The notes under the pieces are model-generated. The model was given only the letters and a program-made list of their open reading frames with translations, was not told the origin of the DNA and searched no databases. Of a stretch of DNA of 60,374 bases, positions 3,372 through 11,602 are shown piece by piece. Source of the stretch: Candidatus Omnitrophota bacterium (GTDB lineage: Bacteria > Omnitrophota > Gorgyraeia > Zapsychrales > Zapsychraceae); contig JAHFGL010000010.1 in the NCBI GenBank assembly GCA_023247445.1, positions 1-60,374 on the forward strand. Direction: 5' to 3'. The translations under genes were made by a program, and so were the position numbers. Position 1 is the stretch's first letter; each line of letters starts with the position of its first letter.

Positions 3372-4004
3372 TCATCTCTTTTTAAACTGATCTCTAAACT
3401 CTCGGTCTCCAATAGCCTGACCACGGAAATTAATGACATCTAAATTCTTCAGAAGACCTTTAACAACCAAAGTCTTATATAAAAGTTTTCTCTCTGTATC
3501 ATTCTTTCCTAAATCTTCATAAAGCTTGTGATGGTCAAGCTTCAAAACCCCAACCTTCCCCGAGGCTAATTGATTAAATCCAGACCAGACATAATCTGCT
3601 GGATCTTTAGCTATTTTTTCTTTAACAGGATCTAAATCAATATGGCGAGAACAGGCTAAGAAATATTTTTCTTCTTGAACGACAAAATTTTTATAGCGTC
3701 GTAAGAAAACATGCCCGATTGCTTTGTATTTTTTATTGAAATATTTGGCGTACTTCTTGGAGACAAGCTCCATAAACTTGGAAAGGCTCTCCTCTTCTTG
3801 AGGTTCGAGCAATAAGTGGATGTAATGATCCATCAAGACATAATTGAAGATCTTGACGGAAAACTGCTCTCTGGACTCATTTAAATAAGCTAAATATTGA
3901 TTTCGATCTTGATCGGATAAAAAAAGCGGACGCAGACCTGTGCCACGGCAGATGACATGGTAAATATGCCCTAGTTTCTGATAACGCATAGAGCGCATCA
4001 ACAT
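3372..4004 (-). CDS. REP-associated tyrosine transposase (RAYT, IS200-like) with altered catalytic residue
   Basis: This 210-residue protein belongs to the TnpA-REP/Y1_Tnp HUH family, which nicks single-stranded REP hairpins. The N-terminus (GHIYHVICRGTG, residues 12-23) matches the family start. The metal-binding HUH pair is present as HYIHLLLEP (H60, H63). The helix that normally reads Y-I-x-x-N-P-V here reads RHIDLDPV (120-127). The catalytic Tyr position is therefore His121 (codon CAT, 3642-3644) and the usual Asn is Asp. The following W-S-G motif (about 140-142) is kept. The protein is full length with no frameshift. A promoter lies directly at the start, so the real start may be the ATG at 4004 or the one at 3989. 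Two REP-like palindromes lie nearby around groEL. It may be catalytically inactive, domesticated, or use another residue. The family call is firm; activity is unknown. Confidence 0.88.
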   Translation of the reverse strand: MLMRSMRYQKLGHIYHVICRGTGLRPLFLSDQDRNQYLAYLNESREQFSVKIFNYVLMDHYIHLLLEPQEEESLSKFMELVSKKYAKYFNKKYKAIGHVFLRRYKNFVVQEEKYFLACSRHIDLDPVKEKIAKDPADYVWSGFNQLASGKVGVLKLDHHKLYEDLGKNDTERKLLYKTLVVKGLLKNLDVINFRGQAIGDREFRDQFKKR

Positions 4005-4010
4005 GACCCT

Positions 4011-4039
4011 AGCATATCAACATGCTGTGAATATGTCAA
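4011..4039 (-). promoter_or_regulatory. Sigma70-type promoter for the RAYT gene
   Basis: Reading the minus strand, TTGACA (4039-4034), a 17-nt spacer and TATGCT (4016-4011) form a good promoter, with a TG one base before the -10 box (extended -10). The predicted start of transcription falls at about 4004, on or next to the first ATG of the RAYT gene. There is no Shine-Dalgarno, which suggests a leaderless or near-leaderless mRNA. It probably also transcribes the giant surface protein. Confidence 0.6.
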
Positions 4040-4135
4040 TAATTAGCTGCTAAATATTATGTATTTTACAGCACCTTAGTGAATAACAAAATAGAGGAAA
4101 AATAATTTAGGAAATATGTAGAAGGGAGGGCAAAC

Positions 4136-4166
4136 AAAAAAGAGCAAGGATATTATCCTTGCCCTT
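4136..4166 (-). terminator. Rho-independent terminator of groES-groEL
   Basis: A 9-bp perfect stem pairs 4144-4152 (GCAAGGATA) with 4154-4162 (TATCCTTGC). On the minus strand it is followed by TCTTTTTTG (4143-4135). It lies about 115 bp after the groEL stop and before the RAYT promoter, so it separates the heat-shock transcript from the next unit. Confidence 0.7.
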
Positions 4167-4180
4167 TTGATCTTATTATC

Positions 4181-4265
4181 GTCATCCTGAGTCCGTAGGA
4201 CGAAGGATCTCAGAATTCTTTAAGTACGTTGAGATTCTTCGCACCTTTGGTGCTCAGAATTACGG
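4181..4265. repeat. REP-like palindromic element, copy 1 (downstream of groEL)
   Basis: The outer arms are GTCATCCTGAG (4181-4191) and CTCAGAATTAC (4253-4263). Internal complementary segments are CGAAGGATCTC and GAGATTCTTCG, and there is a small GCACC-TTT-GGTGC hairpin. The fold predicted is a three-way junction of hairpins, as in REP/BIME elements. It ends about 14 bp after the groEL stop codon. It shares arms and the GATCTC/GAGATTCTTCG core with the copy at 5966-6036 but differs in the loops. Confidence 0.75.
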
Positions 4266-5965: not shown

Positions 5966-6036
5966 GTCATCCTGAGCGAAAGCGAAGGATCTCTTTATTC
6001 TTTGAGATTCTTCGGCCTTTGGCCTCAGAATGACGG
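5966..6036. repeat. REP-like palindromic element, copy 2 (groES-groEL gap)
   Basis: The arms are GTCATCCTGAG (5966-5976) and CTCAGAATGAC (6024-6034), with inner arms CGAAGGATCTC and GAGATTCTTCG and a GGCC-TTT-GGCC hairpin. It fills most of the 121-bp gap between groES and groEL, so it is transcribed in the mRNA. There it could change the stability or ratio of the two cistrons, as REP elements do in enterobacteria. It is related to the copy after groEL. Confidence 0.8.
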
Positions 6037-6043
6037 AGATTAA

Positions 6044-6513: not shown

Positions 6514-7272
6514 TTACTTTGATGATAGCAGCGCCATGCCCTTAAAGACAAGGTCGCGGTCAATTTTATGGATCTTATGCGCAATAAAACGTTTCATCAA
6601 ATAAAGGTACCCACCAGTAACAATCACTCTTGGACGGCCCTTTAGTTGACGGGAAATACGATCAATCAACCCAACGAGCATTTCACCATAACCGTAGAAA
6701 ATTCCGCTGAGCATACTCGTCACGGTATCTTTGCCGATGAGCTTTCTCGGGGCTTCAATGTTATTAATTTTAGGCAGTAGTGCCGTTTTACGAAACAGCG
6801 ATTCAAACGACAAACGAATTCCGGGAACAATAATCCCTCCTTCATAAGCGCCGCTTTTAGAAACAGCATCAAGCGTGATGGCTGTTCCCAGATCAATGAC
6901 AATGGCTGGCGCGCCATAAAGACATTTGGTCGCGTAGGCGCAGACCAAACGATCTTGGCCCACCTGTTTTGGATTCTTGTAATTATTTTTAATGGGAACA
7001 ATAATGTCTTCGCCAACAAACAAAGGATTGATCTTAAAAATATTTTTAATTTGTCCTCGGACAATATGATTAAGTGGTGGGACGACGCTACAGACAATAA
7101 TATCAGCAATCGCATTATGATTTCGTTTTATTATTTTTAGCGTCTGCAATAGTTTTATTTTAAAGGCGCTAGTGGAAATCGTCTTATCAAAATAATAAAC
7201 CTTTATCACCTTAGAATTTTTAAGAACAGCCAGATGAATGGATGTGTTGCCTAAATCAATTGCCAAAAGCAT
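6514..7272 (-). CDS. coaX: Type III pantothenate kinase
   Basis: This 252-residue protein phosphorylates pantothenate in the first step of coenzyme A synthesis. The ASKHA-fold phosphate motif DLGNTSIHLAVL is at the N-terminus. Further motifs are G-x-D-R (VGQDRLV), VIDLGTAITLDAV and GGIIVPGI, all CoaX signatures. I place the start at ATG 7272, 7 bp after the preceding stop codon. The same frame is open further upstream to 7548, but that part only reads the glycine-codon tract of DUF2207 in another frame. It is the last gene of the run that begins at 14258. Confidence 0.93.
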   Translation of the reverse strand: MLLAIDLGNTSIHLAVLKNSKVIKVYYFDKTISTSAFKIKLLQTLKIIKRNHNAIADIIVCSVVPPLNHIVRGQIKNIFKINPLFVGEDIIVPIKNNYKNPKQVGQDRLVCAYATKCLYGAPAIVIDLGTAITLDAVSKSGAYEGGIIVPGIRLSFESLFRKTALLPKINNIEAPRKLIGKDTVTSMLSGIFYGYGEMLVGLIDRISRQLKGRPRVIVTGGYLYLMKRFIAHKIHKIDRDLVFKGMALLSSK

Positions 7273-7279
7273 TTTATTC

Positions 7280-9034
7280 TTACCAACCACCGCCACCACC
7301 TCCTCCGCCGCCACCACCAGAACTCCCACCGCCACTAAAGCCACCGCCGCCAGAAGTTGATCCGGGAGGCGATGAAGAAGCAGCAATCGTTGTCGCAAAT
7401 GTCCCTGCGAGACTCGAAGCAAAATTAGTCGGTCTTGAGGAACTCCACGATGGCCCATAATACCATCCTGGAGAATAGGGTTGCCCCGCTTCTTCTGCGC
7501 GTTTAAACACCTCAGCAAATTGCTGTGACCATTTCTGCTCGACATCAAGAGCTAGGGCGTAAGGCAAATATTTTTCAAATAACTCCGGCGTTTTTTCCGG
7601 AGGATTGAGCATATTCAATCGATCTTTTTCCGCGACAGATAAATACATTCTAAAACCTTCAATGGAATCCATTAGTTTTCGGCCGGTCATCGTTGGGGCT
7701 TTAAGCAAATAATAAAAAAGGGCATGCACACCAATAGTCAAAATTGAAAGAAGCACAATTGATGAAAATGGAATCTGATTAAATTCCTTTCCGCTTGAAC
7801 CTCCCCAAAAAATAAAAAGACCGGTAAAAACAAGACCCCAGAAAAAATATTCTTTGTTAGTATGAAAATAAATCTTTTCATAACTTTTCTTTAGCGAATC
7901 CTGTAGATCAGTCATGGCGCTACGAATATCTTTATAATTAAGATTATTCAGTTGAATTTGTGAACGATTTGAAAATAACTGACGCGCGGACGCGGCTTCT
8001 TCTTTGGTAAGCATCGACGCATCTTTGGTAAGTTGTTTGAGCGTATACTTTCCACTTATCTCTTCAATCTTGGCATAGCCCTTGACCGCCATGTTTAGAA
8101 TGGCAGCGGTAAAGACTTTATTATCATATCCCATATGTAAAATATAGCGAATGACCGCCGGAGAAAGATTCATTGGTGGAGAATATAATGGAATAATCGT
8201 TCCTTTAGCTGGATCCTTACCCACCAAATCCCAAATGATGACGTAATAAACCAATAAAATAAGCAAACCTAAGAAACAAAGAAATGTTCCCCAATTATCT
8301 TTAATAAAATAGTTGCATCTCTGAAACCATGTCGGCTCATGAATAATTCCTTTTGGCCAAGAAACGACAACGGTTAACCCCTCATTTGAATTAAGCCCCC
8401 GCGTCGTTGTGAAGACTAAGTGATCATTTTGATTCCGTTCAAAAGCAAAATGTTGCTCACGGGACCCCATAAGACCCGTGTACCCACCTGTTTCTAAAAT
8501 ACGTTCCGCCGCTTGCTGTGGCAAATCAATCGTAACAGAAGCTTCATCGATCGGAAAATTCCAACCATTGCCGGTTACGTTCCAATAAAGTTCATCATGA
8601 TCCTTAAAAAATCCCAGTTGACGGTTGGTTTCATATGTAATTGTGTACGTATATTCACCGGAAGGAAGAAAATAATCTTTGTTTCCAATATAAACCCGTT
8701 TGCCATTGGCCCAATCTTTTACAAAATAATTTTCTTTTCGATTGTCTCTTAAAACATCAATCATGCGAAAACCAACCACAACGTGATTTCCCAATCGATC
8801 CAAATAATTTGTCGGGAAATCCCGATAAATCCCTCTTTTAATTTGATTCTCTGCGCTACGCACCTTAATAATTTCGGTAACGGTCATCGACGCGTCTGGA
8901 TGCACACGGACATAACTATGAAAAGAAAGAATTCGTTCATCGGCCGCCGCTAAAGTCGATAAAGCCCCGAACAAACTAATTAGAAGAAATAAAACAAAAC
9001 CTGTCGTCAGCTTATGGTTAAAATATTTTCTCAT
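7280..9034 (-). CDS. DUF2207 family membrane protein with poly-Gly tail
   Basis: This 584-residue protein has an N-terminal signal segment ([18 protein letters not shown]), then an extracytoplasmic DUF2207 beta domain. That domain contains [18 protein letters not shown] and the RGIYRDFPT motif characteristic of the family. One membrane helix follows ([18 protein letters not shown]), then a cytoplasmic part with two more helices ([15 protein letters not shown] and [20 protein letters not shown]). It ends in a Ser/Gly tail with a run of 11 Gly and a final Trp, typical of the family. The start is ATG 9034, after the lemA stop. An upstream in-frame extension inside lemA is rejected. LemA-DUF2207 pairs are common; the function is unknown, probably envelope-related. 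Confidence 0.85.
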
Positions 9035-9035
9035 T

Positions 9036-9593
9036 TTAAGTTCCCTTAATAAATTTAGCATCTGGGACTTGGCGTTCTGTTGCATATTCAATCTCAAAAA
9101 ACTTAGCCGGCTGAAAATTAAACAGTGACGCGATCGTATTCGCCGGAAACGATTGAACCATTACATTATAATTGCGCACAGTGCCATTGTAATAACGTCT
9201 CGCCATCTGCAATTGATCTTCAATTTCCGATAAACTATTTTGCAGAGAAAGAAAACCTTGATTAGCTTTCAAATCTGGATAATTTTCTGCTAACGCAAAA
9301 ATAGTTTTTAGCCCTCGCGAAAGCTGATTCTCCATCGATTCACGCTGAGTATCTGACGGGGCACTCACAAGCTGTGTACGCAACTTGGCAATATCTTCCA
9401 ATGTCTTTTGCTCATGCTGAGCATACCCTTTGACTGTCTCAACGATATTTGGAATCAAATCATATCGACGCTTTAGCTGAACATCAATCCCGCTAAAGGC
9501 TTCTTGCAAAAACATCTTTAGCTGAATCAAACGATTATAAATCATCGCAATCACAACGGCGATTAAAACAACAATTCCTAATGCGATAAACAT
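9036..9593 (-). CDS. lemA: LemA family membrane protein
   Basis: This 185-residue protein has one N-terminal membrane helix ([20 protein letters not shown]) followed by the LemA helical domain with the family motif [20 protein letters not shown]. The remainder is predicted as antiparallel long helices, ending with [11 protein letters not shown]. Its start overlaps the uvrB stop in TAATG, and the DUF2207 partner follows directly, so uvrB-lemA-DUF2207 appear co-transcribed. The biochemical role of LemA is not established. Confidence 0.93.
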
Positions 9594-11602
9594 TATCGAC
9601 CTTTCTTTACGGTTTTTGGAAGTTCTGGATTCGGGCCTTTTAATTCCTTAATTTTATCTCGAATTAATGCGGCCTTTTCAAATTGCAAATTCCGTGCGGC
9701 CTGCTCCATATCGTTCTCTAAACGCGAAATAAAACTCGCTAGCTCAAATTCTTCCTTATCTTGCCCAACGGATGACAAAACTAGCTCTTCTGCTTCTTCC
9801 TCCGCCAGTTCTTCAATGCCATTGCGGATTGCCTTCTTGATCGTTTGCGGGGTAATGTTATGATCTTTATTAAATTTTGTTTGAATTTCTCGACGGCGAT
9901 CGCATTCGCCAATGGTTGCCTTCATCGCCTGGCTTATTGTATCAGCATACATGATGACAAGGCCATCGATATTTCGCGCCGCGCGACCGGAGACTTGAAT
10001 CAAAGAAGTTTGGGAACGCAAAAATCCTTCCTTATCCGCATCAAAGATCGCAACTAGCGATACCTCCGGTAAATCGAGTCCTTCACGAAGTAAATTGACG
10101 CCAATCAAACAATCAAACTTTTTCTGACGCAATTCTTTGAGAATTTTTGTTCTGTCAATTGTTTCAATATCAGAATGAAGATATTTAACCTTGAGTCCTT
10201 TTTCCGCTAAATATTCTGTCAGGTCTTCCGACATTTTTTTAGTTAAGGTCGTTGCCAAGACCCGCTGATTAATCTTGGCACGTTTCTGTACTTCCTTCAC
10301 AAAATCATCAATCTGACCTTTGGTGGGGCGAACCTCAATCGGCGGATCTACAATTCCTGTTGGACGAATAATTTGCTCAATGATATTTCGTTGCCCGCTT
10401 TCCTTGCGTTCAAATGGGCTCGGCGTTGCCGAGACATAAATTCGCGGGCCAATAATCGAGGTAAATTCATCAAACTTAAGCGGTCGATTATCTAAACACG
10501 ATGGCAAACGAAATCCATAATCAACCAACATCTGTTTACGGGCGCGATCACCCGCATACATCCCATGAAGTTGCGGGATCGTGACATGCGATTCATCAAT
10601 GAGCGTAATAAAATCTTTAGGGAAATAATCAATCAAGCACGACGGCCGGCTGCCCGGCGGACGGTCAGATAAAACACGCGAATAATTTTCAATCCCGTGA
10701 CAATACCCCATCTCTTTCATCATTTCCATATCATAACGCGTGCGTGAATTAAGACGCTGAGCTTCGGCTAATTTACCCAACTTATTTAACTGCGTCAAAC
10801 GTTCTTTAAGTTCATCTTCAATTAAACTTAAAGCAGCCTCAATGCGCGGTTGTGAAATAATAAAATGTTTGGCCGGATACACAGCCACTTGATCGACTTC
10901 GCTGATTTCATTTCCTGAAACGGGATCAATCTGAGAAATCTTTTCTATCTTATCGCCAAAAAATTGAATTCTAATCGCATCCTGGCGATACGCTGGATAA
11001 ACCTCAACCACTTCACCGCGCACTCGTATTTTCCCTCGGCTAAAATCATAATCGTTACGCTCATATTGAATGTCGATTAACTTCATGAGCACTTGATCAC
11101 GGTCAATTTCTTCTCCTTTAGATAAGTAAACTAAAAATTCTTTATAGTCATCTGGCGAACCCAAGTTATAAATGCAGGAAACACTCGCGACAATAATCAC
11201 GTCGTGTCGCGACATTAACGAAGTTGTTGAGGAAAGTCGTAGACGATCTAACCGATCATTGATCGAAGAGTCTTTCTCAATATAAATATCAGTTTGTGGA
11301 ATATACGCTTCGGGCTGGTAATAATCGTAATAGCTAACAAAATATTCAACAGCATTGTGAGGGAAAAATTCTTTAAACTCGCTATAAAGTTGGGCGGCGA
11401 GAGTTTTATTATGCGAGATAACTAAGGTGGGACGATTAATCTTCTCAATGACATTGGCGAGGGTGAAGGTCTTTCCGCTCCCAGTGACCCCTAAAAGAAC
11501 TTGAGATCCTTCACCGCGCTTAATGCCATCGACTAATTTATCAAGAGCGCCTATTTGTTCAACAACCGGCTTAAAACGACTCTTAAGGAGGAACTTCTCC
11601 AT
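9593..11602 (-). CDS. uvrB: Excinuclease ABC subunit B
   Basis: This 669-residue protein is full length. It is the DNA-damage verification helicase of nucleotide excision repair and works with UvrA and UvrC. Visible parts are Walker A GVTGSGKT, the beta-hairpin region EYFVSYYDYYQPEAYIP, helicase motif DESH, the RQKKFDCLIGVNLLREGLDLPEV segment with helicase motif VI QVSGRAARN, and the C-terminal UVR motif (LENDMEQAARNLQFEKAALIRD) that binds UvrC. The gene overlaps lemA by one base. No LexA-type box was recognised upstream; it appears embedded in the operon after the lipoprotein gene. Confidence 0.98.
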   Translation of the reverse strand: MEKFLLKSRFKPVVEQIGALDKLVDGIKRGEGSQVLLGVTGSGKTFTLANVIEKINRPTLVISHNKTLAAQLYSEFKEFFPHNAVEYFVSYYDYYQPEAYIPQTDIYIEKDSSINDRLDRLRLSSTTSLMSRHDVIIVASVSCIYNLGSPDDYKEFLVYLSKGEEIDRDQVLMKLIDIQYERNDYDFSRGKIRVRGEVVEVYPAYRQDAIRIQFFGDKIEKISQIDPVSGNEISEVDQVAVYPAKHFIISQPRIEAALSLIEDELKERLTQLNKLGKLAEAQRLNSRTRYDMEMMKEMGYCHGIENYSRVLSDRPPGSRPSCLIDYFPKDFITLIDESHVTIPQLHGMYAGDRARKQMLVDYGFRLPSCLDNRPLKFDEFTSIIGPRIYVSATPSPFERKESGQRNIIEQIIRPTGIVDPPIEVRPTKGQIDDFVKEVQKRAKINQRVLATTLTKKMSEDLTEYLAEKGLKVKYLHSDIETIDRTKILKELRQKKFDCLIGVNLLREGLDLPEVSLVAIFDADKEGFLRSQTSLIQVSGRAARNIDGLVIMYADTISQAMKATIGECDRRREIQTKFNKDHNITPQTIKKAIRNGIEELAEEEAEELVLSSVGQDKEEFELASFISRLENDMEQAARNLQFEKAALIRDKIKELKGPNPELPKTVKKGR

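Follow-up and report, generated by a model that had tools for sequence, protein, structure and literature searches.

A RAYT-like gene with an altered active site ahead of a giant open reading frame in a Candidatus Omnitrophota genome, and recurrent loss of catalytic residues in its clade

What could a RAYT-like protein still do for its host once most of the residues that cut DNA have changed? The question is raised by a gene close to one end of a 60,374-nucleotide stretch of a Candidatus Omnitrophota genome (assembly GCA_023247445.1, contig JAHFGL010000010.1, positions 1 to 60,374; henceforth the window). Two features define the locus:

3372..4004, minus strand: RAYT/TnpA-REP-derived gene encoding 210 aa, catalytically dead judging from its residues
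1..3348, minus strand: long co-directional ORF downstream, truncated at 1116 aa where the contig ends, its start 23 bp past the RAYT stop

The frame of the RAYT-like gene is uninterrupted over all 210 codons (4004..3372), as a previous sequence-only reading had stated. The protein matches the Pfam Y1_Tnp domain (E 2.4e-11), with scores that stay below the curated cut-offs of the NCBIfam models NF047646 (REP_Tyr_transpos; 57.6 bits, cut-off 80) and NF033573 (IS200/IS605 TnpA; 19.5 bits, cut-off 55). A phmmer search against the PDB gave no real match. With an AF2 model (pLDDT 85, pTM 0.81), the best PDB match in Foldseek was 4er8 (E 2.8e-7, TM 0.74 by target), the E. coli TnpA-REP with a REP hairpin, TnpA-REP being class 2 of the TnpA-Y1 family (PMC6006769). 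In the model, residue 61 opens strand 61–68 and residue 121 lies inside helix 112–123, which is the placement found in Y1 enzymes, and the protein is predicted to retain the Y1 (RAYT) fold.

The HUH motif reads H-u-H, and in all intact relatives it corresponds to H61-u-H63, mostly in the context D-N-H-u-H. The codons of the window gene here are GAT CAT TAC ATC CAC, i.e. D59-H60-Y61-I62-H63, and alignment with the relatives gives the following assignments:

3825..3827, minus strand: His60 (CAT), in the column of the Asn preceding HUH, not an HUH residue
3822..3824, minus strand: Tyr61 (TAC), where the first HUH His belongs
3816..3818, minus strand: His63, the second HUH His, retained
3642..3644, minus strand: His121 (CAT), in the column of the catalytic Tyr
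3630..3632, minus strand: Asp125, in the column of the metal-ligand Asn of Y-x-x-x-N-P (role of this Asn, PMC6006769)

That positions 60 and 61 are separate is clear from a relative, G006, which reads D-H-H-I-H; H60 therefore replaces the Asn ahead of HUH. The sequence-only reading had taken H60 and H63 for a conserved HUH pair, which fails on this point. Its other residue assignments hold: the CAT codon of His121 aligns with a Tyr in 11 of the 14 members of the clade described below and in nearly all distant relatives, N125D is seen in alignments with both close and distant relatives, and the W-S-G motif is there (W140-S141-G142). In place of Y-x-x-x-N-P, whose Asn binds the metal in E. coli TnpA-REP (PMC6006769), the protein has H121-I-D-L-D125-P, and so lacks the catalytic Tyr motif. 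Three of the four active-site residues are altered (H61Y, Y121H, N125D) and only H63 is kept, which makes DNA nicking by this protein very unlikely.

The genome holds a second gene of the same clade, a paralogue (G000:C24, L002) with an intact active site whose product is 49% identical to the window protein, and also two distant RAYT-like genes. Twelve further proteins from related genomes align over nearly their full length at 39–50% identity, and a clade of 14 members, including the more distant G119, has support of 100/100. The active site is intact in nine of them. HUH or Tyr residues have been lost in the other five, namely the window protein (Y61, H121, D125), G006 (A121, D125), G009 (C61, Q63), G002 (T61) and G024 (A61, H121). 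At least one of the three residues is missing in only 6 of 100 other RAYT-like proteins, one of these a fragment (p = 0.004 for the comparison with 5/14). On the best clade tree, built without the active-site columns, there are about three changes to the lost state (bootstrap range 2–4). Grouping of the window protein and G006 as sisters, both with H60 and D125 and without the Tyr, was considered and dropped, its support (80/86) vanishing once these columns were removed.

The sequence-only reading would have been undone by close homologues that all carry Tyr, as expected of a recent point mutation. Most of them do, but G024 has His and G006 has Ala, a pattern of recurrent loss rather than of a new His subfamily or of a single recent point mutation. 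The same pattern bears on the suggestion of an altered chemistry, in which the exchange H61Y/Y121H together with N125D would have rebuilt the site, e.g. with H63, H121 and D125 as metal ligands and an attack by Y61 or water, or through a covalent phospho-His. In its favour, His and Tyr have literally changed places at two catalytic positions, an Asp is able to bind metal, and the fold is predicted to be intact. Yet the combination is unique to the window protein among 114 proteins, His121 with Ala61 in G024 and Ala121 in G006 fit loss, His-Tyr changes are single transitions, and the E. coli TnpA-REP catalytic mutant Y115F gave no specific product (PMC8266576). As the HUH pair is not intact, the idea has also lost its main support, and we regard it as very improbable. 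More improbable again is an assembly or sequencing error behind the His codon: the gene does lie 3.4 kb from a contig end in a single MAG-like assembly, but the differences extend to three active-site codons in a frame that is still open, and related genomes have lost the same sites independently.

Loss of catalysis invites a simpler explanation, slow decay, which is the main rival to a binding or regulatory role. The active site would have gone once the repeats stopped moving, the frame would be open only through recency, and the place before the giant ORF would be inherited with no present function. Several observations fit: the window protein has the longest branch in the clade-only tree and is altered at 12 of the 48 residues that never vary in intact members, and its gene has a dN/dS of 0.33 against the paralogue (dS 1.46), compared with 0.06 for the intact pair G001/G018, so that selection on it may be relaxed. 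An intact paralogue is present in the genome, and a published survey counts RAYTs without HuH/Y as non-functional (PMC6006769). Against decay, three separate active-site changes have accumulated with the frame open and the promoter layout intact, and loss recurs within one clade that is coupled to giant genes. Genes G002 and G024, both without the first HUH His, are moreover still constrained (pN 0.17, pS 0.83). An unconstrained frame would stay open with a probability of 6% at 0.1 substitutions per site and below 1% at 0.2; together with the low pN/pS and dN/dS this argues that selection acted on the window gene over most of its past, and it may since have relaxed in this copy. On balance decay seems to us a serious contender, if somewhat improbable.

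The clade is also coupled to a particular kind of downstream neighbour. Defining a giant as an ORF of at least 900 aa, within 200 bp and on the same strand, we found one directly downstream in 9 of the 14 clade members, at gaps of -32 to +49 bp. The same arrangement occurs just once among 63 other RAYT-like genes (Fisher p = 1.2e-7), and once among 22 RAYT-like genes of the same bacterial family (p = 1.8e-4). The single coupled control, L102, is a dead non-clade RAYT in the genome of the window, likewise without its active site, and was kept among the controls. The giants beside clade members have 2,165–3,145 aa and look exported; that of the window, of at least 1,116 aa, has a hydrophobic signal-like leader and fibre-like repeats (VGIGTT/ALDIGD) and gave no confident Pfam domain. 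Past the RAYT gene of G002 come a 130-aa frame and then an open ORF of 4,881 aa. In G014 and G008 the RAYT stop and the giant start overlap, which suggests translational coupling.

Seven of the coupled giants belong to one family, F1, predicted to be secreted and with DUF11 in the single member scanned. F1 is single-copy in most genomes that possess it. Giants of F1 without a RAYT exist in other genomes and in the window's own (C65), usually with a fibre-like long ORF as upstream neighbour, and two clade members, G007 and G037, do not adjoin giants, so the partnership is not obligatory. Nor does it need catalytic loss, since six intact members hold the equivalent position before F1 giants. The giant of the window and that of the paralogue share 87% DNA identity in their N-terminal region, against 49% protein identity for the RAYTs preceding them. 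A distance correlation of RAYT and F1 co-inheritance (r = 0.09) was uninformative after removal of the close pair G001/G018.

Degenerate or fused RAYT-like domains also occur elsewhere. A second group with a degenerate active site (motif EFxPV, 167–199 aa) comprises L102:9495-9998 (G000:C59), L148:5302-5823 (G022), L149:2040-2576 (G011) and L031 (G033). In three of these, the next gene, on the same strand, encodes an exported-looking protein: in G000 a giant of RHS/SpvB/TcdB-mid type, in G022 and G011 secreted proteins of 225–227 aa. L143:4355-5674 (G011:C137) encodes 439 aa in which a RAYT-like domain without HUH is fused to a C-terminal part containing a hydrophobic stretch that looks membrane-like.

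Upstream of the window gene, two short elements are of interest:

4011..4039, minus strand: promoter TTGACA-N17-TATGCT, 6 nt ahead of the ATG, in a layout common to most clade relatives
4043..4053, minus strand: short palindrome TTAGCAGCTAA, a little before the -35, where relatives have AGTACNNGGTACT-type palindromes

Judged by pattern count, the promoter that the sequence-only reading called good is at chance level (4 found, 3.6 expected). Its layout, TTGACA-N17-(-10) followed by 6 or 7 nt and the ATG, with TTGATAT-like spacer bases, is nevertheless kept upstream of most clade members, which makes it credible, and so compact an arrangement suggests leaderless transcription. With a promoter of its own and the giant 23 bp downstream, the RAYT-like gene and the giant probably form one transcription unit.

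Several relatives have a palindrome of about 13 bp, of type AGWACNNGGTWCT, shortly before the -35. Arrays of it with a period of about 25 nt lie beside three catalytically dead members, G002, G024 and G006, and in G002 also between RAYT and giant; single or paired sites lie beside other clade members. The arrays, 13-bp units at 25-nt spacing, can be inspected at L097 (flanks of 9367-10032, G002), L099 (G024) and L092 (G006). In total 43 sites were counted against about 2.6 expected from local background, an enrichment that is post hoc because the motif was derived from these same flanks. A motif-free scan of the flanks for perfect 6-bp palindromes gave a weak excess in a few members, so the arrays rest on the motif scan together with the 25-nt spacing. 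The window itself contains no AGWACNNGGTWCT site; TTAGCAGCTAA is alone in that place and is possibly a remnant of the relatives' palindrome. In G007 and G037, longer inverted repeats stand on both sides of the RAYT, in a REPIN-like arrangement.

Repeats of another kind lie farther upstream, between the gene and groEL:

4138..4168, minus strand: terminator-like hairpin separating the RAYT gene from groESL
4181..4265, no strand assigned: CGTC-type REP in a head-to-head dimer, with about 40 copies in the genome

Could the protein be an active mobiliser of these repeats? The genome has about 40 of the CGTC-REP dimers, including one 177 bp upstream of the window gene and another, at the paralogous locus, in frame within the leader of the giant gene. 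Against this stand the lost active site and the distribution of the repeat: genomes in which intact clade RAYTs adjoin F1 giants do not have it, and G021 has it in abundance without any clade member. For CGTC REPs, no dedicated transposase is known (PMC3733652). Since the presence of the repeat across genomes does not follow the clade, a functional link is not supported, and we set aside the CGTC REP as clade substrate; dimers beside both clade genes show proximity, which is not proof of a link. Mobilisation by this protein is scarcely credible. The groEL gene was likewise rejected as a conserved neighbour, no groEL being common to the relatives. The in-frame dimer of the paralogue's giant leader lies at L088:10320-10450, and the corresponding part of the window (3348-3230) has no insert. 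A second dimer is found between groES and groEL (5966-6037), and farther on two long minus-strand ORFs (6514-7548 and 7280-9097) have about 270 bp in common, at a glycine-rich tail.

We therefore prefer, with a probability of about one half, to see the window gene as a RAYT derivative that has lost catalysis and has been retained as the partner of a giant surface-protein gene, binding hairpins and probably acting as a regulator. Having lost the chemistry of nicking through H61Y, Y121H and N125D and presumably kept the Y1 fold, the protein would be transcribed with the giant, probably as one unit, from the compact promoter of the RAYT gene. It would bind short palindromes or hairpins, in DNA or mRNA, near its own promoter and the start of the giant gene, and this binding would tune the expression of the unit. 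Of the two outcomes that the sequence-only reading proposed, the domesticated, non-nicking one gains from the three altered sites, the independent losses and the coupling to giants, whereas changed chemistry does not. In a wider version, tentative and on present evidence doubtful, a RAYT-derived lineage, several of its members without nuclease residues, would have been domesticated within giant surface-protein operons, as the gene nearest the promoter, and would control them by binding palindrome arrays of about 25-nt period or leader hairpins; if true, this would be a host function of RAYTs that does not involve REP movement. Repeated loss of nuclease residues in a clade that retains the fold, and whose genes often stand before giant surface-type genes, makes a concrete non-catalytic role testable and bears on the open question of what RAYTs do for their hosts. 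Proteins usually dropped from RAYT surveys as non-functional can show conserved positions and constrained sequences.

Compared with known systems, the window gene is far from the IS200/IS605 TnpA type, which has Y-x-x-x-Q, HUH and many near-identical copies; here there is neither the Q nor the HUH, and one close paralogue at 49% identity. The repeat at 4181-4265 resembles the CGTC-tagged REPs in its CGTC foot, AT-starting stem and head-to-head dimers (PMC3733652), but that survey saw no CGTC-flanked RAYT, and the present genome has such a unit beside both of its clade genes. The giant ORFs recall those described in Omnitrophota (PMC10066038) in being very long and exported-looking with few recognised domains, and differ in size, about 2–5 thousand aa here and not over 20 kb. 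We found no mention of "transposase" in the text of that study, and the literature searched describes no coupling between RAYTs and giant or surface genes. The closest system remains RAYT/TnpA-REP, with which the protein shares the Y1 fold, length, Y1_Tnp domain, W-S motif and low copy number, and several of its relatives also the hairpin repeats near their genes. It departs from that system in the missing catalytic set (H61Y, Y121H, N125D), the NF047646 score below cut-off, the REP dimer seen upstream, which is of CGTC type where GTAG-type (GT[AG]G) REPs repeated through the genome would be expected to flank a RAYT, and the giant ORF coupled to it.
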